Origin: Acanthococcus lagerstroemiae
Taxonomy: Eukaryota; Arthropoda; Insecta; Hemiptera; Eriococcidae
DNA: 64,000 nucleotides
Assembly (NCBI GenBank): GCA_031841125.1
Contig: CM063112.1
Coordinates: forward strand, 19,432,603 to 19,496,602
Direction of reading: 5' to 3'
A program made the translations under genes and the position numbers. This document shows, in pieces, positions 11,611 to 64,000 of this stretch. Every line of letters begins with the position of its first letter. Positions within the stretch are counted from its first letter, which is position 1. The notes under the pieces are model-generated. The model saw only the letters and a list, made by a program, of their open reading frames with translations. It ran no database searches and was not told the DNA's origin.

Positions 11611-13060
11611 TGCAAAGCTCCGAGACACCAACCAACTTCAAAGAATACGGACTGGAACTACTTTCGCGAAACTGTCAGCTCAAAAATCGACCTCCGTAAG
11701 AAACTCAAATCTGCCAAAAACATCGACATAGCAGTACAGCACTTACAGTCGACCATCATTGTAGCCGCCAAGGCAGCAACACCAGCCCAGAAACCACTCC
11801 CTGCTACTACCTCCTACCCGCAAGAAGTAAAAAAGCTGATCAAAGAGCGTAGAGCAGCTAGACATCGCTGGCAGGTCACCCGTGACCCAGCAGATAAGAG
11901 TGCATTAATCTCCTTAGCAAGTGAACCAAGAAGCTAATTGCGAAAATTAACAACAAAATCTTTGAAGACTTCCTCCATTCACTTGGTCCAAGCAAGGAAT
12001 CAAACTGCACTCTCTGGAGGGTAGCAAAAGTAAAGAAAAAACCTCTAAGCTACACTCCCGCATTGAAGAAGACAGACAACAGGTTTGCACGTAGCGATGC
12101 TGAGAAGGCTGCGACTTTTGCCGACCATCTAGAGAAGGTCTTTCAGCCTACGATCCACCAACTGGTCGGACCTACGATGAAACCTGTCTCTCCCAAGGAA
12201 GTCCAAGCTATCTGCAGGAAGCTGAACAAGCACAAAACGTCGGGACTAAACCTTATTACGGCTCGCATCATGGCAGAATGTCCATGTAAAGCTGTGGTGT
12301 TGCAGACGCATATAACTAATGCTGCTATTCCGTTGAGCTATTCGCCTAAGTCTTGGAGAACAGCGAAGGTTATACTTCTCCACAAGCCCGGAAAGCCTAT
12401 AGAAGATCCAGCATCCTACAGACCGATCTCACTCTTGCCTGCGCTCTACAAGATCTACAAGAAGATCATCCATAGTCGCCTCATAAAAGTGGTAACAGAC
12501 CTGAACCTCATTTCTGAACACCAGTTTGGATGCCAAGCATTCAACCATCGAACAGACTTACAGAATCACCACGGTCATTCACAACGCACTCAAAGTTAAG
12601 GAACACTGTCCTGCCATATTCTTAGACGTCAAGTAGGCATTCAACCGCATCTGGGTTCAAAAGTTGATACACAAGATCAGCGAATGCCTTCCCAATCAGT
12701 ACACTCAGCTGCTCCAGTCATATGTGACGGACAGGAAATTTCAGGTTTAGTATGGTGAAGCTGTCTCTAACCTGAAACCTACCCTCGTGGGAGTCCCGCA
12801 GGGCAGCGTGCTAGCTCCTCTATTTTACGTGCCATACATTGCAGACATACCTCGCTCACGGTATACAACGCTAAGCTACGTTTGCAGACGATACCGCGGT
12901 CCTCGCTCCTCATACAAATTGCGACATTGCAGTCCACCGACTACAAGAAGCTGTCAATAAACTCCAACAATCTCCAACAATCTCCTCCAACATTCTCCAA
13001 CAATTTTCTCCTACTATCTTCTCCAACAATCTTAGACAATCTCCACGACGATTTTTGGAG
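11611..13060 (+). pseudogene. Jockey LINE linker and reverse transcriptase, broken
   Basis: The linker (11602-11935) ends at a stop. The RT part opens around 12063 and contains KTSGLNLI (normally SPG-D), then PASYRPISLLP, ending in a frameshift at about 12560. Downstream reads FLDVK-stop-AFNRIW (12620-12650), where a stop interrupts the D-x-AFD active-site motif. VGVPQGSVLAPLFY follows at about 12788-12830. The FADDTAVLA catalytic motif is present at about 12878-12905, but one frameshift separates it from the upstream 'LSY'. The RT is inactive. Confidence 0.85.
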
Positions 13061-35464: not shown

Positions 35465-37372
35465 GTTGGGATTATTATTTGTTACAATACATTTATTTTA
35501 TTTATCAATTATGTGTCGTCCCCAAAGTAGGGCCCATTAGTTCCCAGGCCCGTATCGGGCAAAGGTTTCACGTAAGCGCTCCCACTCTTTCCTATGTTTT
35601 ACAATTGTTTGAAAGTTTTTATTTTTTTTAAATTTATTCATGTCGTCCTTCCATCTTGTAATTTGTTTGCCCCCCCCTTCTTTATCCGTCCTACGGCTCC
35701 CAAAAAGTAGCTCTATAGGTCCATCGGTTGTCCACGAGGCGGGAGATATGACCTGCCCAGTTCCATTTGTTATTTCTGATATATCTGATTGTATCGATGT
35801 TATTTTTCAGTTTTGTTTTTATCGTTGCTGTATTTATATGGTCTCTCCTCTCAACACTGACCTTTCCATCGCATTCTGCGTGACTCTAATTTTATTTAGG
35901 ACTTTTTCTTTTAGAGGCCATGTTTGACATCCAGGTTAGGGCGGGTACGACGCACATATTGAATACTTGACTTTTTTGCTTCGTACTAAAGTTGTCTTTG
36001 AAAATATCTTTTAGGGACCAGTATTTCGACCATGCTTTTGTTATTCGTATATTTACTTCATTTTCGATTTGGTTTTGAAAAGCTATTTTTTGGCCTAGAT
36101 AAGTTCCCTCCTTCACTATTTCGATGTCTTTTCAGTCTATTAGAATTCTCTTTTGTCCCAGTGTTTTGGAAAGGATTTCGGTTTTTTGGGTATTTATTAT
36201 TAGTCCTGCTTTTTTGCTTTGCCTGTTTAGGTCTTTTAACATTTCCTTTAGTTCGTCTAGTGTTTCTGCAAAAAGAACTATATCGTGTGCGAATCTTAGA
36301 TTCGTTAGGCGACTACCGTTTATATTAATCCCCCTCCCCTTCCAGTTCAGATTTCTAAATATTTCTTCCAACGCGCAGTTGAATAGAATCGGCGATAAGG
36401 GCCTTGTCTCACTCCTTTTTTGATGTCAAAGTATTCGCCCGTCGTGTCCGTCCTAATCCTAGCTTTCATATTTCTATATTTTTCGTATATTAGTTTAATA
36501 AATTTTAGGGGAGTTCCTTGATTTTTGAGCGAGCTTAGCAGAAATTCGTGGCTTGTAGAATCAAAGGCCTTGTTGTAGTCTATTAGTCCTATATGTATGT
36601 CATTTCCGTACTCGTTACATTTTTCTATTATCTGATTGACCGTGTGTACAATGTACATCTGTACATGGTCCACTGTTGAGAAGGATCTTCGGAAACCCGC
36701 CTGCTCTATTGGTTGCTGCGAGATTAGTATTTTTCTAACTCTGTTTTCTAGCGCTTTTGAAAATATTTTGGAAATTATTGGAGTAAGGGTGATCGGTCTG
36801 TAATAATTTTCTAATTTGTGTTTTTTTTTACTAGTTCCCTTCCTCCCATTTTTATGTGTTCGTTGGTTATGTTGTCGTGACTGGGACTTTTTTTGATTGA
36901 TTTACTATTGCTTTGGTTTCTCTTCCCGAGAGAGAAGGTTCGTTTTCCACATTTTTGTTCAATAGATTTTCAATATCATCTTTATTGTTGTCATTATACA
37001 ATTCTGTGTAGTATTTTGTTATTATTTGGTTTATAACATTTCGGTCGCAGACCTTTCCACCTTCACTGTTTACGAAGTATGTGGTCCATTGTGTACCTGG
37101 ATTTAGTTTCCTTCTCATTTTCCTAAAGTTCTTATTGCCTTTCAAAGTTTTTTTTATTATTTCGTTTTTAGTTCTACAGTTTTTTTGTCTAATTTTGTTC
37201 CGAATTAGTCTCGAGACCACGTTTAATTTTATTTTTTCTATTTTTGTTTTTCCTTTGATTCTTATTAATCCACTTCTTTTAGCTTGCGTGCTTTTTATTT
37301 CTTCTTTTTGTTCGTTTATGTTTGTATTGTTATTACTGGTATTTGATTTTGATTCTGCTGACTCTGATATGG
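35465..37372 (-). mobile_element. 5'-truncated RTE-like LINE
   Basis: On the minus strand the order is linker (37220-36867), RT (36840-36132) and C-terminal region (36116-35520). Readings include YYRPITLTPIISKIFSKALE, QPIEQAGFRRSFSTVDHVQ, GLIDYNKAFDSTSHEFLL and KKGVRQG. LTNLRFAHDIVLFAETLDEL follows, where the FADD motif has become FAHD. Then come YLGQKIAFQNQIENEVNIR, ITKAWSKYWSLKDIFK and VFNMCVVPALTW. A frameshift follows KKGVRQG. The endonuclease is absent. An AATAAATG-rich tail is near 35470-35500. Confidence 0.85.
36132..36673 (-). pseudogene. LINE reverse transcriptase core with FAHD active site
   Basis: Two overlapping frames cover RT motifs. The first (36673-36347) carries DYNKAFDS, which holds one catalytic aspartate, and GVRQG. 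The second (36371-36132) carries FAHD in place of the canonical FADD, so one of the paired catalytic aspartates is a histidine. With the frameshift between them, the enzyme is dead. It belongs to the LINE at 35465-37372. Confidence 0.85.
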
Positions 37373-37375
37373 GGT

Positions 37376-37865
37376 ACGTTACCCTGGCCCCCCCAAATTT
37401 GATTTTAGACCCGATTTTGGGTTAGGGGAAATGTACCCGAAATGTACCCAAATGTACCGCTATTATTACAAAATGTACCTCCTCCCCTTGCGAAGGGGGA
37501 ACTAAAGTCCTTTGGTGGGGCCAGGGTAACGGGAGCCCCCCCAATTTGTCTGATTTCGTCAAATTTGGTTCGAATGAAATGTACCCGAAATGTACCGAAA
37601 TGTACCACCAATTATCTGAAATGTACCCCGTTTATAGCCGCGGGGGGGAGGATTCAAGTTGGTGGGGCTGTGGTAACGTTAGCCCCCCCATTTGTTCCAA
37701 TTTCTCCGAATTTGGGCAGAATGAAATGTACCCGAAATGTACCGAAATGTACCATCAATTATATAAAATGTACCCCCTCCCTTCCCATGTAATGACCAAA
37801 AGTATGAGGGGGCCGAAATGAATTAGAGCTTCCAACTTTACCTATTTCGTCACATTTGGTTCGGA
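37376..37865. repeat. ~150-bp satellite, about 3.3 units
   Basis: Units start at about 37376, 37527 and 37675, with a decayed partial from ~37820. Each has GTAAC(C/G), GCCCCCCCA, a TTTGGTTCG-like segment, then AAATGTACC repeated three or four times, and a G-rich close (GGTGGGGCYNNGG). Every unit carries several copies of the 9-mer AAATGTACC. It abuts the truncated 5' end of the LINE at 37372. Not coding. Confidence 0.8.
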
Positions 37866-38688
37866 ATATAATTATTTGGGTACTTCATTAGTGTTAAGGA
37901 ATATTCACACTTAACGAAAATATTAATAAACTAGGGGGCTCCGCCCCATGCCCGCTTTGCGGGCCCACCCCCGGAGTTAATGAAATATAGGTTAATTTGC
38001 ACTATAGAAACACAGAATTTATTTTATGTATATAGGAAAAAAAGTTAACCTCTATGAGGATGCACCTATTATCATTACACAGAGATACACCTTATGTAAA
38101 TATCAAACTACAGTATATGCATATACTGTAACTATTTCAAATTTAGAAGTGTCCACTGCAGGTAAAGTCGTTGATACATAGAGATAGATGTTCTCATACT
38201 GTCCGAGAGAAAAAAGCAGTTTTAATCAAAACATGTATTTTTTCGACTTCACATCAAGTTTACTGTTTCAAGGGAGACACATTGGAAATGTTAAACAAAG
38301 GCTAAAGAAATCAAGTAAAACTTCATTTTTCTACATGCACAGTTCTAATTATGGATTTTAAATATGACAGGTTATGTCATAACAAATGTATTAATATTAT
38401 TCAGAAGTGAGTTTATCTACTTTACATATGAAAAACAATATAGCCTATTACATGCAAAAAATTGAATTTTGTTTAGGCTTTACTCCATTTTAATTCATTA
38501 TCGATCGAGTAACCATTTTTTATGATTTTTCGGACTTCTGAGTATACATTCCCTTCTGAAATTTCTAGTTATAGTCCCTAGAGAGAAATTCAAGAACATA
38601 AAAATACTACATAAATTAATGATTTGTGAGTTAAATACTATTACGGCTACAAATTTCACTGTTCTGATATACCTTATGACTCTTTGAA
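37866..38688. other. Intergenic DNA with a GC-rich hairpin and a palindrome
   Basis: A GC-rich patch at 37933-37975 contains GGCTCCGCCCC and the hairpin GCCCGC-TTT-GCGGGC (37949-37963). It stands out in AT-rich DNA and resembles a transposon-end or UTR stem-loop. A perfect 22-bp palindrome centred on TATGCATA lies at 38109-38130. No gene is visible. Confidence 0.5.
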
Positions 38689-38689
38689 A

Positions 38690-40455
38690 GACTTCGAACA
38701 AAAAAATAAACAGGGGCTCACGGAAAATTATTTCTTAAGCCGACCAAATGGAGAATTCAATTTCCGAAGTTGGGGTCGGGGTCAACCCAACGGATCCACA
38801 ATAGATCTGAATCGAAAAAAGTTAACCATGAATAATCTTGAGAGGCTGAACGATCGAGAATTAGATTTGCGGAATTGGGGTGGAGACAATCCATCGGGTC
38901 CACAATATTATATTATTATTTTTATTTACTGAGAGTGTTATTGCCTTTTGCTGCTATAATCTAACTATTATTAAAACAAACGTAAATTATTAGAAGAGGG
39001 TTAACGTATTATTTGAATTGAAAAAGTAAGACGTTCACCAAGAATAACATTGAGAAGCTGGAAAATCGAGTTTTAGATTTTCGTCGTAGGTGGGAGAGTT
39101 ATTCCTTGATCCACAAAAGATCTCGATTAAAAATAAGGGGCTTGTGGAAAATTGTTTTTCAACATCTATAATCGAGAATTTGATTTCCGGAGGTAGGGTG
39201 TGGTCTACCCCACGGATCCACGAATTATTTCAATAAATAAATAAATAAAAAGTTCACCTACGAAAACTCGAAAATAATATACTCTTTTGGTGTTGGGGGC
39301 GCGACTCTACTTTTCCCGTGTAGAAAATGTATCAGTTGAAAAAAGGGGAGGCTTACGTAAAATAATTCAGAAATTTGAAGAATCGAAAATTAGATTTTCA
39401 GAGTTCAGAACGGGCTTCACCCCTCAAGTCCACAATAGATTTTATTCAAAAAAATTAAAGGTTCACGAAAAATGAATATTGAAGTCCGAAGATTCGAGAA
39501 TTTGATTTTCGGAGTTGGGGTTGAGGGTCCACATGTGGAATCCACAAAATACTTCGATCAACAAAATAAGGGGTTCGCGGAAAATTATTGTTCAAGCCTG
39601 AAAAATCGATAATTAGACTTCCGGAGTTGAGGTGATGGCCCACCCCTCGGAACCACAACAGACTTAAACAATCGAATATCATTTTTCACGTCAGAAATAT
39701 CGAGAGTTTGATTTGCAGAGTTGAGGGCGGGGTCAGCTCATCGGGACTCAACCATTAGACCCCACAAATGATTACAACTGAAAAACGGAAAAGGTCACGA
39801 AAAAGATTTCTAAAGGCCAAAAAATTGAGGATTCGATTTTCGGGGTTGGGGGTGGGTTCCATTCCTTGGATCCACAAAATAATTTAGAAGTTTGAAGAAT
39901 CGAATGTTATACTTTTGGAGTTAGGGTGGGGGTCTACCCCAGGTTCCACAAATTACTTCGATCAACAAATTAAGAGGTGCACAAATTCGAGAATTAGACT
40001 TTTGGAATTGGACCCACGAAAGATTCCAATTGCAAAAATTAACAGAGGTCATCAAAATCGAGAATTAGATTTTCGGTGTTAGGGTGGGGAGCACCTTCCG
40101 TTTTTCAGTTACATGTTTAAAACTGCTGAAATGGGCTATTCCTTTGCAATGTATTATGGTTTCATACACAAACATTTGTTTTCTGAATGAGGCCTCGCTT
40201 TCATTACACGGGGCATCCACAAGATGGCTATTTACATCTGAAAGTTCTTTGGTACACTGTGGGCCCCCTAATTTCGTCTTAGTGCGCACAACTTTCTGTT
40301 GTACTGTATTACAAAGCACATACCTGTGTTTCTTTACGGTCTACTCAATGAAAGTGGACCTATCACCTTGAGCCTCTTCCCCTACGGCAAACATACCCGC
40401 TGGACCCACATAAGATTTCAATTAAAAAATAAACAGTCACCAAAAATGACAGCAT
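38690..40455. repeat. Diverged ~105-bp satellite, about 12-13 units
   Basis: The unit contains ATCGAGAATTAGATTTTCGG, AGTTGGGGTGGGG, a CCAC-CGGATCCACAA segment, then TTCAAT-AAAAAAATAA and GGTTCACGAAAA. Recognisable starts lie near 38750, 38858, 39067, 39173, 39387, 39493, 39606, 39701, 39823, 39898, 39988 and 40059. A last half-unit follows at 40398-40455 after an inserted segment. Units are heavily diverged and vary in length. Confidence 0.8.
40088..40397. other. ~310-bp insertion within the satellite
   Basis: A satellite unit is cut after GGTGTTAGGGTGGGG and resumes with GCTGGACCCACATAAG. The intervening DNA has no satellite words. A 95-codon plus-strand frame (40084-40371) and an 84-codon minus-strand frame cross it, but neither is recognised. 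No TIRs or target duplication were seen. It may be a SINE-sized insertion or retained unique DNA. Confidence 0.45.
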
Positions 40456-40466
40456 AGGTGTAGTCA

Positions 40467-40502
<36 letters not shown>

Positions 40503-40541
40503 TAACAATAATGACAATAATAATAATAATAATAATAATAA
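40467..40541. repeat. AAT/AAC microsatellite, 3' tail of the adjacent LINE
   Basis: Runs of AAT with a few AAC units. It lies exactly at the 3' end of the minus-strand LINE that follows, so on that strand it is an ATT-type tail like those known for RTE-like elements. Confidence 0.85.
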
Positions 40542-41800
40542 TGTAACCTTGGATAGGTGGGCCATGTCAGTTATCCTGCCCATTTGAGGGCATAGGTTTC
40601 CACCATCTCTCTCCATATGTCACGGTCTCTCGCCAATCTTATCCATCTTCTCCCCAGCTCCTTGAAGTCGTCTCTCCAGCGTAGCATCGGTCGTCCCCTT
40701 GCACGTTTATGGCCATATGGGATCCAGTCGGTTGCAGTCTTATGCCATTTGAAATTCTTTTCCCTCATCAGGTGCCTCGCATATTTCAATTTTAATTTTC
40801 TGATTATGTAGCCAATATCCTTTACATTAATTCTTTCTTTGATGTCCAGAAGCTTAATTTTGTCTTTTAATTTGATTTTTAGGATGTTCCTAAACATTGA
40901 ATTTTGCATAACTTTTAACTTCTTTAAATGTCTTCTAGCTATTGGCCACATCTGGGCCCCATGTGTTGCCACTGGGAGCACACAGGTACTTACGATTCTT
41001 GCTATTGTTTTAATTTTCATGTTGCTTTTAAAAATATGTTTTTGTGCCCAACATGCTTTCCATGAGTTATTTATACAAATTTTAATTTCCTTATTACTTA
41101 TGTTTTTGAAAGATACAGTTTGTCTTAAGTACTTGTATTCATCGAATATCTCTAGTTCTGCTGCGCTGGATCAAAGGTATTTGTCCTTTTTCCCATCTTT
41201 CGTCATAATTTTGGATTTCCCCAGGTTGATCGATAATCCTACATTAGCCCCTTGTTGTGCCAAATCTTCTATCATTATATTTATATCTTTACTGTTTTTA
41301 CCTATTAATACGATGTCATCGGCAAATCTGAGATTATTAATCTTCACGCCATCTATCTTCAGCCCGTAACTATCCCAGTCCAGTTTTCTGAAAAGATCCT
41401 CCACAGTACAGCATTAAAGATGTTTGGTGACACTGGATCTCCCTGTTTGACTCCCCTACCCACTTTAAATATATCCCCCTTTATGGCCAGTGAAATATAT
41501 GCAACCGAGTCTTGGTATAAATTTTCTAATAATATTTTCGGGAACTCCTTGCGATGCTAGAGCATTCCAGGCGCTACAGTGACTGATAAATGAAATCAAA
41601 GGCCTTATTAAAATCGATGAATGTGATTCCCCTACCCACCTTAAATATATCCCCCTTTTTTGTCCAGTGAAATATATGCTACCGAGTTTTGGTATAAATT
41701 TTCTAATAATATTTTCGGGAACTCCTTGCGATGCTAGAGCATTCCAGGCGCTATGGTGACTGATAAATGGAATCAAAGGCCTTATTAAAATTGATGAATG
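40542..41800 (-). mobile_element. 5'-truncated RTE-like LINE
   Basis: The minus-strand readings in order are FRKLDWDSYGLKIDGVKI, LRFADDIVLIGKN (an intact FADD, 41404-41171), then after a gap VSTCVLPVATHGAQMW, MQNSMFRNILKIKLKDK and GYIIRKLKLKYARHLMRE. IPYGHKRARGRPMLRWRDDF and RRWIRLARDRDIWREMVETY close the protein (41020-40571). The last part is a 149-codon open frame. The 5' end at 41800 carries a partial tandem duplication of RT sequence. The ATT tail at 40467-40541 marks the 3' end. Confidence 0.85.
41453..41800. repeat. ~176-bp tandem duplication within the LINE RT
   Basis: 41453-41623 and 41629-41800 are near-identical direct copies. On the minus strand both read through NALASQGVPENIIRKFIPKL-like RT sequence followed by KVGRG-type residues. 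The duplication sits at the truncated 5' end of the LINE. Confidence 0.88.
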
Positions 41801-42895
41801 CCAAAACGGTATAATGAAGCAGAATTCCGAATTTTAAACAACACATTTTTTGTGAGCGGTGAAGTACCTAGAAGGGACTGGTTCGGAGCGACATTTTTTT
41901 CATCTTTGTGTTATGTAGAACATCGAGATTCGAGAACGAATGCGACGTAAAACACGACTTCTTCCCTGGAGCTGGAGGAGTCGTTCATGCACATGCGCAT
42001 ATAGAGCGTCGAGGAAACTTACGATTTTATAATATAGTAGCATATAGTAAGATTTACCAAATACCAATTAGCATGCAAATAATGTTTCTATCGAGCATTA
42101 TCGATAGCCCAGTAGTTTAAACTCGATTACTGTCGTCGTTTTAATCGTACTTAATCAAGAATGCACTGTTGATTAATGATTACGTTAAAATGACTTTAAA
42201 TAAAGTAAAGGCCTGCATCGAGTGCTCAAAACACTGTTCGATGGGCAGTTGAAAGGCGCAGTATAAAAGAAAAATTCATAGTAACAAAAATGTTTATAGA
42301 AAATAATAAAATCTACATAATTAAAAGTTAGTATGTACAAAAACAACAAAAACAGGTAAATGATTACAAAAAAACAGCATAGAACGATTTATACTCAACT
42401 ACAAAACAAAGGACGAAATAAAGAACTAAATAACAAAAATCGAACTGAAACATAACACTAACATAACCTTTAACATATGAAGGATGAAATGAAACCGTAA
42501 TTATTTATACTTAACTACAAGAGGAAGGATAAAATGAGAAACAAAACAACTAAAATCAAATTGTAAAAACAGTAACATAATATATCACAGTCATGTCAAG
42601 TATGAAATGGAACTGCAGACAGTTTTAGGTTACAATTTTTTTATTTTTAGTTTCTAGGCAAGTGAATCATTTATATGAGCAGATGAACAGTCTCCCAGTC
42701 CTTCAGAACATAAACAATGATAAGACAAAGTTCATGGAAGAAAACTGATTATTGTATTTTTAAATGGCGTTCAAAGTTGAAGAATCTCCTTTACCTGGCC
42801 AAAAGTGGACGATTTACCCTACACATAAACCATGCCCATAACAAAATGTATATAAAGTAAGGACCGGATACAGATTTGTAGGGACCTACATATGT
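41801..42895. other. 3' flank of the transposase-peptidase gene
   Basis: 41801-42290 is unique DNA with no gene seen. 42290-42650 is A-rich and contains the 117-bp repeat below. On the minus strand an AATAAA occurs at about 42643-42650, some 245 bp past the stop codon at 42896. It is a candidate polyadenylation signal. No inverted transposon end could be matched to the DNA upstream of the gene. Confidence 0.4.
42365..42615. repeat. ~117-bp tandem repeat, about 2 units
   Basis: TTTATACTCAACTACAA (42388) recurs as TTTATACTTAACTACAA (42504), each followed by GGA-GA-AAAATGA-like and ACTAAAATC words. GGATGAAATGAAACC (42481) recurs as GTATGAAATGGAACTGC (about 42600). The units are diverged. Confidence 0.6.
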
Positions 42896-43829
42896 CTAAA
42901 TAGAATAGACTAGTAACTGGCAGCGTACAGTCATATTACTCTTTGGCAAAATAATTTTACTGGGTCGTAGATCGTCGAATGTCTGCCAGCGACTTTCCGC
43001 AGACCGCCAGCAGTGGCAGATGTAATGGCCCATTGCATTATGATCCGCTGTACTTGGTGCAATAAATTCAACAGCACCTCTCAGGATATATATTTTTTCT
43101 TGTATCGTCAACTCTTTCTTAATGCTCCCTAATGCGCACATCATATCATAATTGCCGTCGGCCCCTGGTGTCGCAGGTTCTACAATGATGTGTTCACCAA
43201 CAAACGTATGGCGTGTGGTCTCCACTGACTGGCAACTTGGCTTTGCACATTTTGGGGCTGCTGGAAATATCGACTTCTGGATACTGTCTAGTAAATGACT
43301 ACCAGTTTTAGATGGTAAGTTGACCACCAGATTGACTCTCCTTCTAGTTGACTCGTATTTACAAATGTTGCATCGTATTTTTTCGACAACTGAAGGAAAT
43401 TCTTTCAGAAGCTCCCCTGCTAGATACGAAACTGTAGTTCGGGTGTCAACTGAGAAGTGATTTTTCGTTTTTTCCGGCTTAGCGTAAAATATTCTGTTCA
43501 AGATTTGCCCACGTTTTCGGTAAGCCTGTACGGTGACGCCATCCCGAATCAGATGTGCAAATAACTCGAACAACAGTGATCGGTCTTTTGTCGCATCCAC
43601 GAATTTCATGTAATTTGAACTATCGGCATATGTTGTACAAAATATTTGACAGATAGAATCAAAAGCGCAAGTGTTAGTAAACGTGTAGTATCGACGATTA
43701 AGTTGGATACCACATAAGTCAGTATTTCCATTTTTTAAAATACCAATGACGGGTGATTTGGATTTCGACTTCAAATTTAGAGCCGAAAATGTAGCGTCTC
43801 TCTCCAGATAACTTCTTTTTTTTTTTTTG
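42896..43829 (-). CDS. USP-like cysteine peptidase, probably the C-terminal part of one protein with the upstream transposase
   Basis: The frame is open on the minus strand from the poly-A run at 43816-43828 to a stop at 42896. It has no ATG at its head; numbering residues from the TTG at 43774, it is 292 aa. FTNTCAFDSICQI places a nucleophile Cys at 36 after Asn-Thr, like the Cys box of peptidase family C19. AMGHYICHCW holds the His at 250, and RWQTFDDL holds Asp 267/268. CNIC (135-138) and CAKPSC (176-181) resemble the zinc ribbon of USPs. A deubiquitinase or related isopeptidase role is inferred from these motifs. It overlaps the upstream ORF in the -1 frame, so it is probably translated by frameshifting or in a form without the A-run indel. 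Confidence 0.7.
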
Positions 43830-46296
43830 GACTCGTACTGATCCCCAATCCTCGCCAGTTTTCTACTACTTCTGTAATATCAGTATATTCAATGACGTCA
43901 GCACTATTGTCAGTAGTAGGCATTTTTGAATTTGAGGGCAGCTTATTCTCGTCTGAAGGCTTTGTATCGCTAGTAATGACTGGTGATTTCGGGTTTGATT
44001 TAAGTTTCAAAGCAGGAGACATAGATGAGTCTTGCTCTAGGTAAATGTTTTTGTTTATTAGTGTTGTGCTGTTCTCCAAACGTGCGGGCCAGCTTTCTCC
44101 ACCTTCAGCAGAATCAACGTGTTCAGTAACGCTGCTGGCTCTGCTTTCAATAGGAGGAAGGTTCGTCTCAACATGAGGACGGGCTTCCTTTGCAGAGATT
44201 TTGTCACTGGAGTCGTATCTGTAGCCGTCAGAGGATTTCAGAAGACAGGAATCGCCCAACTGCGACTTCACGTGCTGAATAACAAATTTATCCAATCTTA
44301 TTGGAAGATTTTCGTGTTGAAAAATTCTATTTTTTATTTGATTCATGACGCTTTCTACGGATGCGCTGGACGCGATGGGTGTATCATATTTGAAGTGTGA
44401 TTGCATAATGCCCGACCAGCACGGAAGTAAATCACAGAACTTTAGTAATTTCGAAGCTAACTCAGGACAATAGTGTAAATTATCATGATCACTTTGATAT
44501 TGGTGAAGAGCAGCTTCAAGTTTGACTTCATCATGAATAATTTTTATATCTGCATAAAATGATGACGGTTCCATTACTTCCTTAGGCGCATCATCTCTAA
44601 TTTGAGGAAGATATTCTTCGTCATCAGGATCATCTGGGTCGCTATAGGTATCTTCGGGTGTCTCGTCAATTTCGGGTACAATGTGAGGACGACCAGATAT
44701 TCTTTCACATACATAATTTTTGGCTACTTCACACGGATTCAGTCGTTTGTTAGCAGTTTTCCCTTCAGTTGTGTAAAACGCAATTGCGAAGATGTGTCGA
44801 AGTAACAATTTCACATCACTGTAACTCGTGTTAGTGACCAGAAGCCCAATACTGCGCAAGTATAACTGTTTAAATCTAGGATGGGTCACTCTCTTGAAAC
44901 ACGGCCACGTACTTATGAGGTGCATGATGTGGCATACATCATTACGAATAGCACACGAGGGTATTTCAACATTTTCACCGGACACCGCTGCATGACACAC
45001 TGAAATATATTTACGTAATGTTGAATATTGAGTAAAGGTCTTCGTAGCAGCCATCATGAGTGCTAAAGATTGGTCCATGACGACTGTTTTCGGTGGTCTT
45101 ATGTTTTGCCGTAACCATTCTGACAAAAAGTAACTTATGGCATTATTATTGTGTTGTTCTGATAACATGTGCGCAACAGAAAATTGAGACTTATTCTGAC
45201 GGTCATAAACGACGATTTCATAGAGGAAAATATTGTTAGTTCGCCGCCCAGAAATTAAATTGAATTTCCGAACTAATCCTCCCGTCGCATCTATAGAAAT
45301 CTGCGGAAAATTGGTGTTTTTACAATAGGTTCGGTAATTGTTTGTTTCCAAAGTTGACCAGTAATGAATGTAAAACTTGTCTATACCAACATTACGTAGT
45401 ATCTGATTATAGGGCATTTGTTCTTTTAAGAGTACCAAAGATATCACTGGGTCATCATCTAAAAGCTTCTTCTTTTGGGCCCGACTTTTTGCTGCTCTCA
45501 GGACGTTACCGCTGGGAATAAGGCTGGGTTCGCACTCTTCATAAGACATAAGTTTCTGTGCTTCGCTGCTGCGTATATAAGATGCTGATTTCCTTTGTTT
45601 AATCATCTTTTCCACCATACTATTCTTACGTAAACCAATTAACTTCCTCTTTCTTTCACCTGCACATTCGATGAAAGCTCCTTCGTAAATGCAATCTACG
45701 ATTACAGGATTGTTGGTCTCATAATTCGGTTCAAATAAAATTGAACCTTCAAATTTCGATTGACACGATGAGCAAGTGCCAGTGATTTTCAAGTAGACAC
45801 TTCCGCCTGGTGAAATTTTGTTGCGTTTGTACGCAATGGCACAGGGAAGTCTTGTCGCGGCATAGAATTTTTCATGAACTTTGTCACTCCATACATATGG
45901 TGTTAGAATAGAATAAGATCGTTTTCCTTCTCCATCTCCCTCGTCACGTCGATATAAAACTTCTTTAACTAGTTCAGAGAATTCCTTTCGGGTGAACACC
46001 AAATTGAACTTCCGGGTATCCGTTTCTTTCATCGAAGTATTTGTACTAGAAGAAGATTTAGGGGACGAGATATGAACAGGAATGTCCAATTTCAGCTGGG
46101 ACTGTATATTATGTCTGTTTTCCTTGACGAGCAAATAAGCATATTTGGCGGTAATACGATAACCAAGGTCGACTACAATTTGTTTCCAAATTTGATCACG
46201 TAATCCGGAAGTAGTTAATGAGTTTCTTATTTCTGCTGTGTATCGGGAGAAGACGTGGACAATTTCATCCCAGTCTTTACGTTTCTTGTTCGGCAT
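43777..46296 (-). CDS. MULE-like DDE transposase, 839 codons intact
   Basis: A single ATG-started open frame. The N-terminus (about 8-70) looks like a Myb/MADF-type helical DNA-binding region. C175 and C178 (TCSSCQS) may bind zinc. The catalytic candidates are D336 in QISIDATGGLV, D408 in KTVVMDQSLALM and E648 in SSASVESVMN. VCHIMH (454-459) between the second D and the E resembles the CxxH feature of MULE transposases. An acidic stretch lies at 545-562. The tail after ~690 is low-complexity. The start is supported by a splice-acceptor-like TTTGATTTTAG four bases upstream of the ATG. I recognise the RNase H/DDE pattern but not the exact family; MULE (possibly NOF-like) is best, and KDZ-type is an alternative. 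No flanking TIRs were found, so either a young element or a host-adopted gene is possible. Confidence 0.75.
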   Translation of the reverse strand: MPNKKRKDWDEIVHVFSRYTAEIRNSLTTSGLRDQIWKQIVVDLGYRITAKYAYLLVKENRHNIQSQLKLDIPVHISSPKSSSSTNTSMKETDTRKFNLVFTRKEFSELVKEVLYRRDEGDGEGKRSYSILTPYVWSDKVHEKFYAATRLPCAIAYKRNKISPGGSVYLKITGTCSSCQSKFEGSILFEPNYETNNPVIVDCIYEGAFIECAGERKRKLIGLRKNSMVEKMIKQRKSASYIRSSEAQKLMSYEECEPSLIPSGNVLRAAKSRAQKKKLLDDDPVISLVLLKEQMPYNQILRNVGIDKFYIHYWSTLETNNYRTYCKNTNFPQISIDATGGLVRKFNLISGRRTNNIFLYEIVVYDRQNKSQFSVAHMLSEQHNNNAISYFLSEWLRQNIRPPKTVVMDQSLALMMAATKTFTQYSTLRKYISVCHAAVSGENVEIPSCAIRNDVCHIMHLISTWPCFKRVTHPRFKQLYLRSIGLLVTNTSYSDVKLLLRHIFAIAFYTTEGKTANKRLNPCEVAKNYVCERISGRPHIVPEIDETPEDTYSDPDDPDDEEYLPQIRDDAPKEVMEPSSFYADIKIIHDEVKLEAALHQYQSDHDNLHYCPELASKLLKFCDLLPCWSGIMQSHFKYDTPIASSASVESVMNQIKNRIFQHENLPIRLDKFVIQHVKSQLGDSCLLKSSDGYRYDSSDKISAKEARPHVETNLPPIESRASSVTEHVDSAEGGESWPARLENSTTLINKNIYLEQDSSMSPALKLKSNPKSPVITSDTKPSDENKLPSNSKMPTTDNSADVIEYTDITEVVENWRGLGISTSPKKKKEVIWRETLHFRL
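43816..43828 (-). promoter_or_regulatory. A13 run: candidate frameshift or slippage site
   Basis: Thirteen A residues (on the minus strand) encode lysines 824-827 of the transposase frame. One extra A, two missing A, or a -1 ribosomal slip here would join the transposase frame to the peptidase frame and skip the stop at 43777-43779. The run could also be a sequencing homopolymer error or a real one-base mutation. Confidence 0.6.
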
Positions 46297-46300
46297 TTTC

Positions 46301-47810
46301 CTAAAATCAAAGAATAATGAGATTTACAATTGACACCTCCTATAGCTTTAGCTCAAACTGTATTCCGAAACCAAAGGGAGTAATAGTACCCCTTTTGAAA
46401 AAAGTCTAGTGGTAAATGTATCCATCGTAAGCTAAATTTATTTGCATATTGTGAAACCTAGCTCGGTTTAAAATTGAAAATCTTTAGATATTAAAAAATG
46501 ATCACTACACCCTGTTCATTGAGGTGCCTACTCTCTCACAGCCAGCAATAAACACCGTCAGATTACTGACCACAATGTTTTTCTTGCCTCAAAGTCCGCT
46601 TCTTGCTTCTTGCTTCCTGCCCTTGCTCGGCTTCTACGAACTGCAACCTAGGTGGGCTATAGACTTCTGCGGTAACTTAAAATGTTATTCTTACATCAAC
46701 ATTTGGAACTTTAATCATTCTGTTTACGTAGGGTTGATAAAAATTTGCATTCATATTCACTGTTAACCACTAAAAATATGAGGAACGGTGGGAAATAAGA
46801 AGTTGAAACTCAGATATGTAGTTGCAAGCATATTGTATGCCTACTACATGTGTGTAGAGAAAAAACTTCCAAAAATTTAGGGCTCAAGGGGGTTGAAGGC
46901 TAGGCGCTTGCATAGACGTTCCATCAGACTAAGCCCTTGCAGCACAAGTCAATAATCTGACTGAAAACGGACTGTGATATAAGCTTGTAAAGAAAATCTC
47001 TCTGTCTATCTGTCTTCCTCTTTCTCTGTCTCTCTCTCTTCCCCTGTGATTCCCTACTTACTATATGTTCTTCCAATATCTGAATGGACTAAAGCTCTCC
47101 AAAATCTCATTCTTCAAAAATTTTCAGCACAACAATATCGTCATCTTACTTCTCTTCTCTCCACTACTACTTATATTCTCCCCTCACTTTTCACCTATCT
47201 TTATTTTCCATTTCCTTTGCTTCCTTCCTTACCTTTCACTCCCTATCCTTCCATCCAAAAACTATACATAAATCTCTCAAAAATCTCAGTGTATTATTTC
47301 TCTCTCTCTCTCTCTCTGGCCTCGCCTCGCCCCACACCTTTCCTTTTATCCACCTTCTCACTCATCTCACGCGTCTATCTCTATCTCCCGTCCCACTTTA
47401 CTCCTTTCATAATGATCCACATGTCTTGGTCTAACCATCAGTAACATAGTCAGATAACTACGTATCGCTTCAATAAGCTGAATCCTCTTTTTCTTGCTTC
47501 CTCTCGCCCTTTCTTACCTCCTCCCCATCTCTCACTGTCTCACTTTCTCCGTCTCCCTCTTCCTCTCACTGTTACTCTCCCTCCATATCACACGTTTATC
47601 TCCATCTCCTGCTATTCATCCTTACTTTTCTCCTTCAATCATCCTAGTCTCTCACTAATCATTGTGTCTCAGTTCAGCCATTGGTCAGTAGATCAGACAG
47701 CTTCATTCCAATATCCCGAATCAATCCATAATCTCGGTACTGTTATGAAATTGATGTTAGCGATTTCGAATGACCAAAGAATGAAAATTCGACAGCTAAG
47801 AATTTTATAC
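46301..47810. other. 5' flank of the transposase gene and CT-rich low-complexity DNA
   Basis: 46300-46970 is unique. On the minus strand it may hold an upstream non-coding exon, since the acceptor-like site lies just before the ATG. 46980-47680 is strongly CT-rich on the plus strand (runs of TCTC and CTCTGTCTC). It includes a loose repeat of CTCTCACTC, CGTTTATCTCCATCTCC-like text at about 47350-47450 and 47580-47700. The plus-strand open frame 47046-47444 is a product of this composition. Confidence 0.4.
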
Positions 47811-47814
47811 TTAC

Positions 47815-48075
47815 TGAAATCTAACGAATTGTGAACCAACTGCGTAGGTCAGATGTTTAACGAACTCGGTGAGTCTGGGTTCTTCTACGGCCCTGGTAAC
47901 GTTGAAACGGCGGTATACGCTCTCAACATATACAAGTCGATCTATAAAGCCGAGAACATTTATTAACCCTTTCAGTAGCGAGAATGTTCCATCCATAGGG
48001 GAATGTTTATTTTCATTGATTATGATAGCGACTACTAATCCAACAGACATGATGCATAAATTGCCTTACTAACCC
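47815..48075 (-). CDS. Possible 5' coding exon of an unidentified host gene
   Basis: On the minus strand a pyrimidine-rich stretch ending ATTCAG precedes the exon. The ATG is at 48050, and 78 codons stay open to a strong splice donor: the exon ends TTTCA and is followed by GTAAGTATA. The apparent stop of this frame falls inside the donor. The peptide is well balanced, starting with hydrophobic SVGLVVAIII and containing LLKGLINVLGFIDRLVYVE and TEFVKHLTYAVGSQFVRF. A membrane or secreted protein is possible. No family is recognised, and the next exon was not found in the window on this strand. Confidence 0.45.
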
Positions 48076-48441
48076 CTGAATTTCAGTAGGAAATGGGAAA
48101 AGAAAATTTCAAATTTCCTACTTTAATTTTGAGTGGAATCGATTGGGACATGCACTGATTATTGTAGAACAGAAGAGCCTCAAGAAAATATAAAAATTTT
48201 TTCTTAATCGCCGCTTTTACGATTCTCTAAATATTATAGTAGGAAAACTGTGTTTTGTATGACGATGACAGAATAACCCAATGCCGACGAATGATTTTCA
48301 AAACTATGAATTATTCCTCCTTACGATTTTGGAATTTTTGGAAAATTTTTTCAATGACATAATTGTCAGGTGCTTTTTATTGAAACATTTAGAAAAGTAT
48401 TCTGTTAAAGCGAATTTTGTAGTAGGAAACTCAGAACTTGG

Positions 48442-48573
48442 CACGAAGGAGCGTGCAGCATGTGAGGATGCATGAAGGAGCGTGCAAGATGTGAGAATGC
48501 ACGAAGGAGCGTGCAAGATGTGAGAATGCACGAAGGAGCGTGCAAGATATGAGAATGCACGAAGGAGCGTGCA
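48442..48573. repeat. 29-bp tandem repeat, 4.5 units
   Basis: CACGAAGGAGCGTGCAAGAT followed by GTGAGAATG repeats at 48442, 48471, 48500, 48529 and 48558, the last partial. Units are almost identical. GCACG and CGTGC ends give each unit short inverted sequences. Confidence 0.92.
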
Positions 48574-48579
48574 TATCAG

Positions 48580-49428
48580 CATATTCTGTATTTGCACGAT
48601 GGTAGCGTGCATACAGTAGCTGGTGCTAACAGTGATTATAATCACCAGTTGTGGAGGAATAGGTATTACTGCACATGTGCAATTTTTTAGGGTTGTTGGG
48701 TACGGGTACAAGTACTTTGTACTTTTTCATATTTTATAGTAGTCACCTGCTACCAATTTCTTGATTAATGAAAATGATGGTCCTCGTCCTCTCGGAAATG
48801 GAAAGTTGGAATGTACTGATTCGGCGCCCGGCGGTGTTCTGTTCTTCCAACTGCAGCAGCGACCAGCTTCCTTAATATATCGTCGCAATTAGTGAACTTG
48901 ATATGAGGAAGTCTTCGACATTCACTCGTATTTATATAAAATTATCTTCAAAACTATGCAACTGCCTATTTATCGCTCAGATAACCATATAAAAACATGA
49001 ATACGACAATGGAACATTTCGGTGATATTGTTGCGCAAACAACTGTATTAAACAAACATCAACGCTCAATCAAGTATAGTATGCGACAGATATTAAGAGT
49101 TATTTTAAAAAACTGATGTAGCGAAACCCGAGGTTTCTATTGGCTGGCTGAAGTAAATCTGACAAAATGTACCGTCCATGATGCATTGCGGGATTGTTGG
49201 AATCATTGTGGAAAATGAAATTAACGATACAAATATCAAAAACTGTTTAACTAATGAGAATCTTTCACTTTATTTTTAACATTGAATAATGTTTAAGCCA
49301 TCATGACGTCATCAGCCGAAATCAAAGTACGAATGGTTTTTTTACGGTGTGTTGATTAAAACATTATTCAATGCGTTTTAATTTTATCCAAGGATCAAAA
49401 TAGATCTACAACGAGGAGCGAAGCGACG
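48580..49428. other. Intergenic DNA, no gene seen
   Basis: Contains a 13-bp inverted repeat, CATTGAATAATGT at about 49281 and ACATTATTCAATG at about 49361, flanking an ATGACGTCAT palindrome (about 49302-49311). The arrangement is small and may be chance. GAGGAGCGAAGCGACGAG at 49414-49431 borders the LINE tail. Confidence 0.4.
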
Positions 49429-49590
49429 AGTTTTATTTTATTATTATTATTTTATTATTAGAAATGTATTTATTGAGCCCCTTTTACGACAGCCCATGGG
49501 CCAGTAACAGTGACGGGGCTTATAAAAAAAACTATTTACAATCTTACAATAATCTAAGAGAAAGAAAAATAAACTTAATAAAAAGAAGAA

Positions 49591-49610
49591 AAAAAAAAAA
49601 AAAAAAAAAA
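49591..49610. repeat. Poly-A run
   Basis: About 20 consecutive A residues within the LINE 3' region (T-run on the LINE strand). The length is likely to be imprecise in any assembly. Confidence 0.8.
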
Positions 49611-49824
49611 CATAGTAATAATAAGATTAAGACAAACAATAAGAACCTGAGTCAGCGGTGCGAGGAGGAAGGGAGCGGGGCGGAGCAGGAGGGTTGCGCA
49701 TCCATTCATTTCCTCTTGATTTATTTTGTTTTATTCTTGTTTTATTCCTGTGCGAGGATTTGAAGTATTGTGTTCTAAAGTATTCTTTTTTTGTTGCGAG
49801 TGTGTCGATTTCCGGGTTTACTAT

Positions 49825-49876
49825 TTCAAGCTTATTGTATTCAAGCTTATTGTGTTCAAGCTTATTGTATTCAAGC
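49825..49876. repeat. 15-bp repeat within the LINE C-terminus
   Basis: TTCAAGCTTATTGTA repeats in phase at 49825, 49840, 49855 and 49870 (partial). On the LINE strand it encodes YNKLE repeats. The period is a multiple of three. Confidence 0.9.
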
Positions 49877-51472
49877 ATGACTCTATTCAGCGGAGCATTC
49901 CAGAACTGAAACGTTCGGCCGCTATGGGAGTAAACAACTGTTTTTTTTTTGCACTTTTTTCCAGGGACATAGATATTAACTCGTTGCAATAGAAAGAAGA
50001 GTCAACTTTTCCATGAACCAAATCATGTAACCAGAGTAAGGCGGTATATTTTCTCCTGTCCTCTAAAGTTGTGAGTTCGTAACCCCGGATTAGCTCATTA
50101 TAATTCACTGTGGGATCATAGTATTCAAAATCTTTATAGTACAAAAATCTTAGAAATCGCTTTTGTATTTCTCAATCTGTTTTATTTGAGTTATAGTAGT
50201 TGGATTCCATACGTTTGCTACAAAGTCTAAGTGAGATCTTACTAAGGAGTAATATAAAATTTTTAGAGTATCCGTATTGCTGAGGTGTTGGAGTTTTTCA
50301 TTATAAATCCATATTACGTTTAGCTTTTCTTATTACTGACATGATGTGATTTCGATACGTTAATTCCTTATCTAAGATAACCCAAGATCTCGAATTTGGT
50401 CAAATTTGCTCAGAGGAATTGATTTTATGGTATAATGATGCATCCTTGGGTCCTTTTTGTGAGTAATGTAATCTGCGCACATTTTCTACGTTAAGTGGTA
50501 GTTTATTCTCTTCACTCCAGGCTACTTATGCATTCAGATCCTCTGTAGATAGTACGGGTCATTATCATTCAGAATTTTACGATAGAGTTTGATATCATCA
50601 GCAATATATTGGAATGTTCAATTGTTTTTGCAATGTCGTTGATATATAAAAGGAAGAGGTAGGGTCCAAGTTTGACCTTGAGGAACTCCAGAGGGACAGT
50701 GGTAAGGCTGAGAGCATGTTCCTCTGTAGACCACGAATTGTTTCCTCCCTCCCAGATATGACGAGAACAATATCTTTAGTGATTCTGAGAATCCGACAGT
50801 TTCTAGTTTATTTAGCAAGATTTGATGATTTACCTTATCAAACGCTTTCTGGAAATCCGTGTATATTACATCAACCTGTTCTCGCTTATCAAATGCTTCA
50901 TATATATTCTCTACCAGTTCTAACTGATTCGTTTGTACATGCGTCCTGTCATGAAGCATGTTGCCATGCGATATTATACCACGGGTTTGGCGGCTGAGTT
51001 TTGTGAATGATACGGACTCAAAGATTTTAGCTGGAGTTGTAAGAGAGCTTTGGTCTATAGTTAGCTACGTCTGAAGTTCCTGTTCCTTTCGGGATAGGAA
51101 TCACTTTTGATGTTTTCCAGAGGATAGGAAAAGTTGTGGTGCTAATTACTAAATTGAATATGTACTTAATGGTTCTATTAAAAAGCTTCGACAGGCTTTA
51201 TATACATAAGGCGGAACATGATCTGGTCCTAAGCATTTCTTTGGTCGCATCGTCTGTATTGCTTCTTCAACCTCTTTCATGGAAATACTTTTGATATTTA
51301 CATTGTCGTAGCATGGGGCAAGAATTGACAATTTTGGCGAGCTACTGTCAATACCAAGAAAAGTGTTCAGCAAATGCTTTAGTAATTGGGCTGAGGTTAC
51401 TAAATTTTCGTTTCCATACCGCATCAGAGACTGATGGGTATTCTCAATTGTCTTCCCTTGATGAAGGCCCAA
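49840..51472 (-). pseudogene. LINE linker, reverse transcriptase and C-terminus, broken
   Basis: 51472-51149 reads MRPKKCLGPDHVPPYVYKAC (the K-x-GPD-x-P RT entry motif). 50959-50618 reads VDVIYTDFQKAFDKVNHQILL and YHCPSGVPQG, after which a frameshift disrupts the frame. FQYIADDIKLYRKI (about 50550-50600) keeps the catalytic ADD. The C-terminal open frame 50144-49887 reads YYKDFEYYDPTVNYNELIRG and RKYTALLWLHDLVHG. The three pieces lie in different frames. Confidence 0.85.
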
Positions 51473-62454: not shown

Positions 62455-63250
62455 AAATAATGTGCACCACCACCGGGTGGTAACACAAGGCATGTAGTAG
62501 ACACCAAGAGAGGAAACGTAAATTCCTGTAGAATTCAATTTACCGAGTGCACCACCACCGGATAGTGACACAAGGCTTGTAGAACACACAAAACGAACGA
62601 CGACCATAGGAAAATGCGACTTCTCAAACAAAATGTAAATATAACAGGTAGTAAATAATAAAATCGTCTGGCTTGATCCGTAGCAGTATTCATTTCCATT
62701 TCGGAAAGAGAAACACAACTAAACGAGCACAGGTAATAGGTATGCAGTACTAATACACAGTAACGTCAAAAAACCGAGCACAATAACGTGCAGCATGGAG
62801 CACAATAACGTGCAGCATGGAGCACAATAACAGAATGCCAGGTCTCGGTGGCTCGCCACCGATCCAAATTCCAGAACTGGACTTCCCACATTGGCTTCCG
62901 TCCTGTATGTTCATGGTCACACGTGGACCAATGGAGATATATTTCATAGTAGTACGTGGACCAATGAGGGGACCGAAACCCACTACAGGGGGCGAGCCGC
63001 ACACTCAAATGCGTCCCAATTATCGTCACAGGCGGGGTCTATCCTAACAGGTAGGGGAAAGCCGAGTTTGAGCAGAGCGTCGAAAGGTTAATTAATCACA
63101 GTTGATTATTACAATTAATTAATACAGTTGAATCATATTAGAGTTGAATCATATTGGAGTTGTATTAAATTATTGTTATTACTATTATTATTATCATAAA
63201 TTTCCACTAAGTCGAGTCGAAAATGATGAATTTTCGACATCTTGTATTGA
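62455..63250. repeat. Segment between satellite units with its own short repeats
   Basis: GTGCACCACCACCGG followed by ACACAAGGC-TGTAG occurs at 62461 and 62549 (88-bp spacing). GAGCACAATAACGTGCAGCAT repeats at 62777, 62798 and 62819 (21-bp period, last partial). ACGTGGACCAATG-G recurs at about 62922 and 62953. 63085-63200 is rich in TTAATTAA, GTTGAATCATATT and ATT words. No gene is visible. It may be an insertion into the satellite or a different array. Confidence 0.65.
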
Positions 63251-63269
63251 GGGTTGTTAAGAAACTGAG

Positions 63270-64000
63270 TGTAATGGTCTCTGTATTTTGTGGCCGTTGG
63301 GAGGTCACACACCTGGATTTTTGCTATCGCTGTGGGGTCACTTACTTCAATCACATGGAGGTGCTTTCACTTTTTCCACTGAGGACTTGGGAGGACATTC
63401 AAATGTTAGGAGAGTTAGAATGGTCTGTGGGTTTGTACTCAGTAATTATCAGTACACTGGTTAGTCTCAATTCGCAGTAAGAAAACACTTTACCTTGTAT
63501 TGAGGGTGATAATGATCTGAGGGTATCGGTCTCCGTATTTTGTGACCGTTGGGAGGTCACACACCTGGATTTTTGCTATCGCTGTGGGGCCACTTGATTC
63601 TATCACATGGAAGGGCATTCACTTCTTACACTGAGGACTACTGGGAGGACATTGCAAGGATTGGAGAGGTAGAATGGTCTGTGAGTTTGTACTCAGTTAT
63701 TATCAGTACCCTGGTTAGTCTTGATTTGCAATAAGAAAACACTTTACCTTGTATTAAGGCTGGTTAAGAACTGAGTGTATTGGTCTCTGTATTTTGTGGC
63801 CGTTGGGAGGTCACACACCTGGATTTTTGCTATCGCTGTGGGGTCACCTACTTCTATCACATGGAGGTGCCTTTACTTCCTCCACTGAGAACTCTGGGAA
63901 GACATTCAAATGTTTGGAGAGTTAGAATGGTCTGTGGGATTGTAAACAGTTATTATCAGTAGACTGGTTAGTCTCAATTCGCTGTAAGAAAGCAATTTCC
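63270..64000. repeat. ~254-bp satellite array, about 3 units, open at window end
   Basis: Units start near 63270, 63525 and 63779 and match 62218-62450. Similar plus-strand frames (VFCGRWEVTHL-FCYRCGV) appear in several units, but their reading breaks after ~50 codons in different places. Sequence conservation of the repeat is a simpler explanation than coding. The array continues past 64000. Confidence 0.88.

Follow-up and report, generated by a model that had tools for sequence, protein, structure and literature searches.

The minus strand of a 64,000-nucleotide stretch of Acanthococcus lagerstroemiae contig CM063112.1 (hereafter, the window) carries two long overlapping open reading frames (ORFs) between positions 42896 and 46323, which together are likely to represent a transposase of the Mutator-like (MULE) type fused to a ubiquitin-specific protease (USP; Peptidase C19). 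The principal features are as follows.

43777-46296, minus strand: ORF1, DDE transposase of MULE-like type, opened by the ATG at 46296 and 839 codons long, its end lying 12 codons beyond the A13 run
42896-43879, minus strand: ORF2, which comprises the linker and a C19/USP-like protease domain, 327 codons from stop to stop
43816-43828, minus strand: a single run of 13 A residues (A13) in the lysine-rich linker, within the ORF1/ORF2 overlap, where the reading frame changes

The open frame of ORF1 spans 43777-46323, with its stop at 43777, and its N-terminus aligns with the MP... start of related proteins (41 relatives in all, referred to by P numbers). When the mononucleotides of this stretch were shuffled 200 times, stop-to-stop frames reached at most 154 codons. 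ORF1 and ORF2 differ in phase, and the first methionine of ORF2 is residue 91, beyond the catalytic cysteine at residue 71, and therefore any ATG start in ORF2 would lose the active site. For relatives P0003, P0014 and P0024, the match to the window passes from one frame to the other around the A run, the first-frame match reaching 43813-43819 and the second-frame match starting at 43849-43828; for P0003, the two matches overlap by 3 residues at the run. For the majority of the remaining fused relatives, the first match stops sooner, ahead of the poorly conserved linker, which in many relatives follows the pattern E-N-W-x-G, lysines, Y-L-x-x-D-P. An earlier reading made from the sequence alone (the sequence-only reading) had described two minus-strand frames, the second without an ATG at its head, that a one-base slip at the A run would join into one protein; the observation was confirmed.

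At E up to 1, ORF1 matched a single Pfam family, MULE (PF10551; E 0.0024, 18.7 bits vs a cut-off of 27.6). The KDZ family was absent from the matches at this threshold, at which weak matches can be missed. Residue conservation was counted over the relatives covering each column of an alignment that included 35 of the 41 relatives, and the following positions stand out.

45289-45291, minus strand: D336, first Asp of the DDE triad, kept in 33/34 relatives
45073-45075, minus strand: D408, second Asp of the triad, kept in 33/35 relatives
44929-44931, minus strand: H456, part of a motif (R-x-D-x-x-H) that lies between the second D and the E, 35/35 relatives
44353-44355, minus strand: E648 of the triad, 32/32 relatives
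45763-45774, minus strand: N-terminal CxxC (C175, C178), possibly zinc-binding; relatives have a CxxC there too

The DDE pattern and VCHIMH motif attributed to ORF1 by the sequence-only reading are present, the latter with the conserved H456. The strand and helix order of the P0003 structure model is consistent with placement of D336, D408 and E648 in an RNase-H-like fold. Overall, the window matches 47 of the 54 ORF1 columns conserved at ≥90%; three of the seven mismatches (797, 798 and 824) fall in the linker and appear misaligned.

For ORF2, the Pfam matches at E up to 1 were UCH (PF00443; E 1.6e-4, 21.8 bits vs a cut-off of 23.9) and UCH_1, and a relative with both halves, P0041, exceeds the UCH cut-off (35.3 vs 23.9 bits). 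The predicted catalytic and zinc-binding residues are listed below.

43667-43669, minus strand: catalytic Cys C71, in NTCAFDS, 30/30 relatives
43361-43372, minus strand: first zinc-ribbon pair, C170 and C173, 25/25 relatives each
43232-43249, minus strand: second zinc-ribbon pair, C211 and C216, 22/22 relatives each
43025-43027, minus strand: catalytic His H285, in GHY; the alignments of 21 relatives extend this far, with His in 14, Tyr in one and a gap in six
42971-42976, minus strand: Asp pair D302 and D303; DD in 14 of the 18 relatives reaching the columns, four with a gap

An Asp follows three residues past the catalytic Cys in 30/30 relatives, and the succession of C71, H285 and D302/D303 is the Cys box, His box and Asp order of Peptidase C19. 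The window matches 16 of the 17 protease columns conserved at ≥90%. Both the USP-like triad and the zinc-ribbon cysteines suggested beforehand could be located. Structure comparison carried out on a relative shows a USP fold, and the 50 matches listed by VIA-align are filled by USPs, with no transposase structure among them. The second best viral structure match was BFVD entry O92526, an uncharacterised bracovirus protein of 544 residues (656 alignment columns, root-mean-square deviation (rmsd) 28.6). A sequence search with ORF2 retrieved no solved structures at E up to 1, and alignment A2 (39 rows), used as a profile against solved structures, gave five weak matches, in which RPB9 and an epimerase ranked ahead of USP9X (0.28). 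A single-sequence fold of ORF2 had a mean pLDDT of 33.6 and was not used. Other protease classes were set aside: OTU and Ulp1, as UCH and UCH_1 were the sole ORF2 matches at E up to 1, and the VTD deubiquitinases, as these have an Asp-x-His motif where ORF2 has His 285 followed by Asp 302/303.

The relatives tie the two halves together. Searching with ORF1 returned 38 relatives at E up to 1, 27 of which also match ORF2 downstream in the same frame. Using the protease half of P0003 as query (candidates of about 600-1907 residues) yielded seven proteins including P0003, three of them new, and the transposase half was present in 7/7. Both domains therefore lie in one frame, with no frame change, in 30 of 41 relatives, a fraction biased upward as the last three relatives were found through the protease. 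When ORF2 was used to look for stand-alone relatives of the protease among 1163 candidates of about 180-572 residues, none scored at E up to 10. Five relatives (P0001, P0003, P0004, P0007 and P0008) extend over the full length, N-terminal Met through protease end, at 1,031-1,090 residues, and the others are cut at one or both ends. The outcomes set in advance as speaking against a fusion were domains that are always separate, or an absence of C19 or DDE matches; we found fused domains and matches to both, in support of the transposase-C19 fusion. Among the relatives, those with names belong to two aphids, Macrosiphum euphorbiae and Aphis craccivora, and four scans for DNA of the relatives in viral contigs gave none.

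In addition, pairwise identities of the transposase and protease halves correlate (Mantel r 0.85, 0/5000 permutations) in a set comprising the window and those relatives (15 of 41) whose protease part is long, where mean identity is 48% and 37% for the two halves, respectively. Recent co-inheritance of the halves is clear. We consider it probable that the locus belongs to a MULE-like transposon family whose transposase was ancestrally fused to a USP. The ancestral product would have been one protein, made up of an N-terminal CxxC region, a MULE-like DDE core, a lysine-rich linker and a C-terminal C19/USP domain. Since the two parts share a single frame in relatives, and each catalytic site has stayed conserved across deep divergence, the sequences indicate the protease to be a maintained part of the transposase.

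Several observations weigh against this assignment. ORF1 stays under the Pfam cut-off for MULE, so that the MULE identity given by the sequence-only reading is supported in part. At E 0.1 or better, MULE was matched by 8/39 rows of alignment A2 and UCH by just 4/39; given these few matches the family is distant from both profiles, and the protease half is a divergent USP. The best Foldseek match in the PDB had a target TM-score of 0.46 and an rmsd of 7.6. At the catalytic His, P0022 has Tyr, and P0009, P0012, P0025, P0028, P0029 and P0030 have a gap. Deubiquitinating activity and substrate of the ORF2 domain are predictions. Furthermore, the correlation between the halves depends on P0041, which is an outlier, and on closely similar pairs: r is 0.79 when P0041 is left out (0/5000), 0.45 when P0021 and P0023 are left out as well (34/5000), and 0.29 when P0040 is also omitted (481/5000). 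Since r drops in this way, the halves may have been exchanged among old lineages; the trees of the halves are poorly resolved at depth. Eleven of the 41 relatives lack a protease match. Eight of these end ahead of the linker (P0002, P0010, P0013, P0017, P0018, P0027, P0037 and P0038), P0011 and P0036 end, as judged by eye, within a zinc-finger-like stretch, and the frame of P0020 ends right past a lysine run shared with the window ORF1, by eye in the same alternative frame. Contig ends or unspliced introns may lie behind many of the protease-less cases. Finally, no convincing inverted repeats were found around the gene, and mobility of this copy is putative. Terminal inverted repeats with an 8-11 bp target duplication are expected of a MULE. 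Between 37001-42895 and 46297-51000, ungapped inverted matches scored at most 15, vs 12-17 in 20 shuffles, no gapped search having been made; the 15 inverted-match rows listed were A/T-rich simple sequence, and one 23-nt inverted pair of 78% identity brackets the gene with outer flanks that do not match. According to excerpts of a MULE survey, terminal inverted repeats are absent in some MULE groups (PMC6446971).

As written, the window copy would encode a transposase that ends just past the linker, leaving the protease unread. Long A runs are mutation hot spots, and since they mutate easily, a change in homopolymer length is the plainest account of the interruption, which most likely reflects such a change, either recent or an assembly error. 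Because P0020 likewise ends just past the lysine run, a break at this place arose, or is used, at least twice. The same observation, together with the run length of 13 and the lack of a Met ahead of the ORF2 cysteine, could instead speak for programmed slippage, in which ribosome or RNA polymerase slips at the run part of the time to give transposase alone plus a rarer transposase-protease fusion; A-rich runs are known slip sites. Yet the 30 relatives with both halves require no frame change, RNA past the run is not unusually structured (z 0.59; at least as good a fold in 143/200 shuffles), and the mutability of long A runs applies here, too. We therefore regard slippage as unlikely, and similarly doubt its extension, namely that the linker acts as a slip site in some lineages to set the ratio of bare transposase to fusion, tuning protection of the transposition complex from ubiquitin-dependent turnover.

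Less probable still is a host gene domesticated from a transposon and now serving as a deubiquitinase or DNA-binding protein. The lack of convincing inverted repeats and the retention of both catalytic sites in the sequence would fit such a gene, but the frame change at the A run would not, nor would the diversity of the relatives, with a single aphid species yielding three distinct named ones (P0003, P0017 and P0022). That the frames belong to separate genes, or are unrelated and overlap by chance, is suggested by their discontinuity as written; we hold this to be highly improbable, as 30/41 relatives have both parts in one frame and ORF2 offers no usable start.

As a proposed mechanism, the protease would reach the transposon ends together with the transposase and strip ubiquitin there, possibly from the transposase itself, repair factors or chromatin. 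As a result, the complex might be shielded from proteasomal turnover, or repair and insertion might be eased. Taken alone, this mechanism of local ubiquitin removal is a tentative, though quite possible, proposal, and the manipulation of host ubiquitin signalling suggested by the sequence-only reading may be viewed in the same light.

Related arrangements appear in excerpts of the published literature. Ginger1 elements carry Ulp1 and OTU and Mutator elements carry Ulp1, and the protease domains have been proposed to serve transposition, e.g. through repair (PMC2836005). Like the fusion described here, a single Ginger1 protein has a DDE transposase with a ubiquitin-type cysteine protease at its C-terminus, and pea aphid elements are tabulated; unlike it, the transposase is Gypsy-integrase-like and the protease is OTU or Ulp1 rather than C19 (PMC2836005). 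Trichomonas vaginalis XP_001314237.1 does join a DNA transposase to Peptidase C19, but has a transposase_11 core, comes from a protist and is a single protein mentioned in a discussion (PMC2836005). Plant MULEs with Ulp1 (Kaonashi/KIU) are Mutator-type elements with a ubiquitin-like protease domain, which is Ulp1 instead of USP, resides in KIU in a VANC-type gene outside the transposase, and is given as of unknown function in plant MULEs (PMC13317346). MuDR-6_HM is a Mutator-type element with an ovarian-tumour gene, i.e. OTU rather than USP, and the main text of that survey is without the words ubiquitin, ulp1 and protease (PMC6446971). Helentrons with VTD or OTU hold a deubiquitinase domain inside their own transposition ORF; they differ in using a rolling-circle RepHel and, for VTD, an Asp-x-His motif, vs an Asp 17-18 residues past the His in the window (PMC9741609). 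Deubiquitinase activity was demonstrated for Helitron-encoded VTDs, which were suggested to keep proteins on which transposition depends from being degraded by the proteasome (PMC9741609).

The proteins of Macrosiphum euphorbiae named 'USP domain-containing protein' (P0003 and P0022) share family and architecture with the window copy; they differ in having one unbroken frame, and their automatic name omits the transposase half. The arrangement had been called unusual, a description to be moderated: DNA transposons with Ulp1, OTU, VTD and (in Trichomonas) C19 are published. C19 joined to a MULE-like transposase was not found among the open-licence papers listed. Unrelated transposons are reported with ubiquitin- or SUMO-type proteases (Ulp1, OTU, VTD) beside their transposition genes, and a MULE-like animal family with a fused USP would add a further class of protease; the active sites of both halves have stayed conserved across deep divergence. 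This fits the idea that ubiquitin removal contributes to transposon movement or survival, and provides one protein in which that idea is testable by a single active-site change.

Some relatives contain additional elements. A SCAND3-like zinc finger (PF23663) is matched by 7/39 aligned rows at E 0.1 or better, and in P0009 and P0012 sits between transposase and protease. The ORF pairs P0002/P0010 and P0009/P0012 each share an end position, possibly marking intron donors in unspliced predictions; for P0009 and P0012, the shared end ahead of the His could be such a donor.

Scans of the whole window for tRNAs and for Rfam families (gathering threshold) returned no matches, as did an NCBIfam search, and one motif was noted downstream of the gene.

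42640-42645, minus strand: AATAAA, possible polyadenylation signal by motif match only, ~250 bases past the stop

Tandem repeats flank the gene at 41448-41800 (177 x 2.0) and 48441-48573 (29 x 4.6); excerpts of the MULE survey describe minisatellites past the transposase ORF of aphid Phantom elements (PMC6446971). Elsewhere in the window, reverse-transcriptase fragments (Pfam RVT_1) lie at 11925-12599 (plus strand; just under the Pfam cut-off) and 36347-36901 (minus strand), and a 254-base tandem repeat in three copies occupies the window end at 63241-63998.
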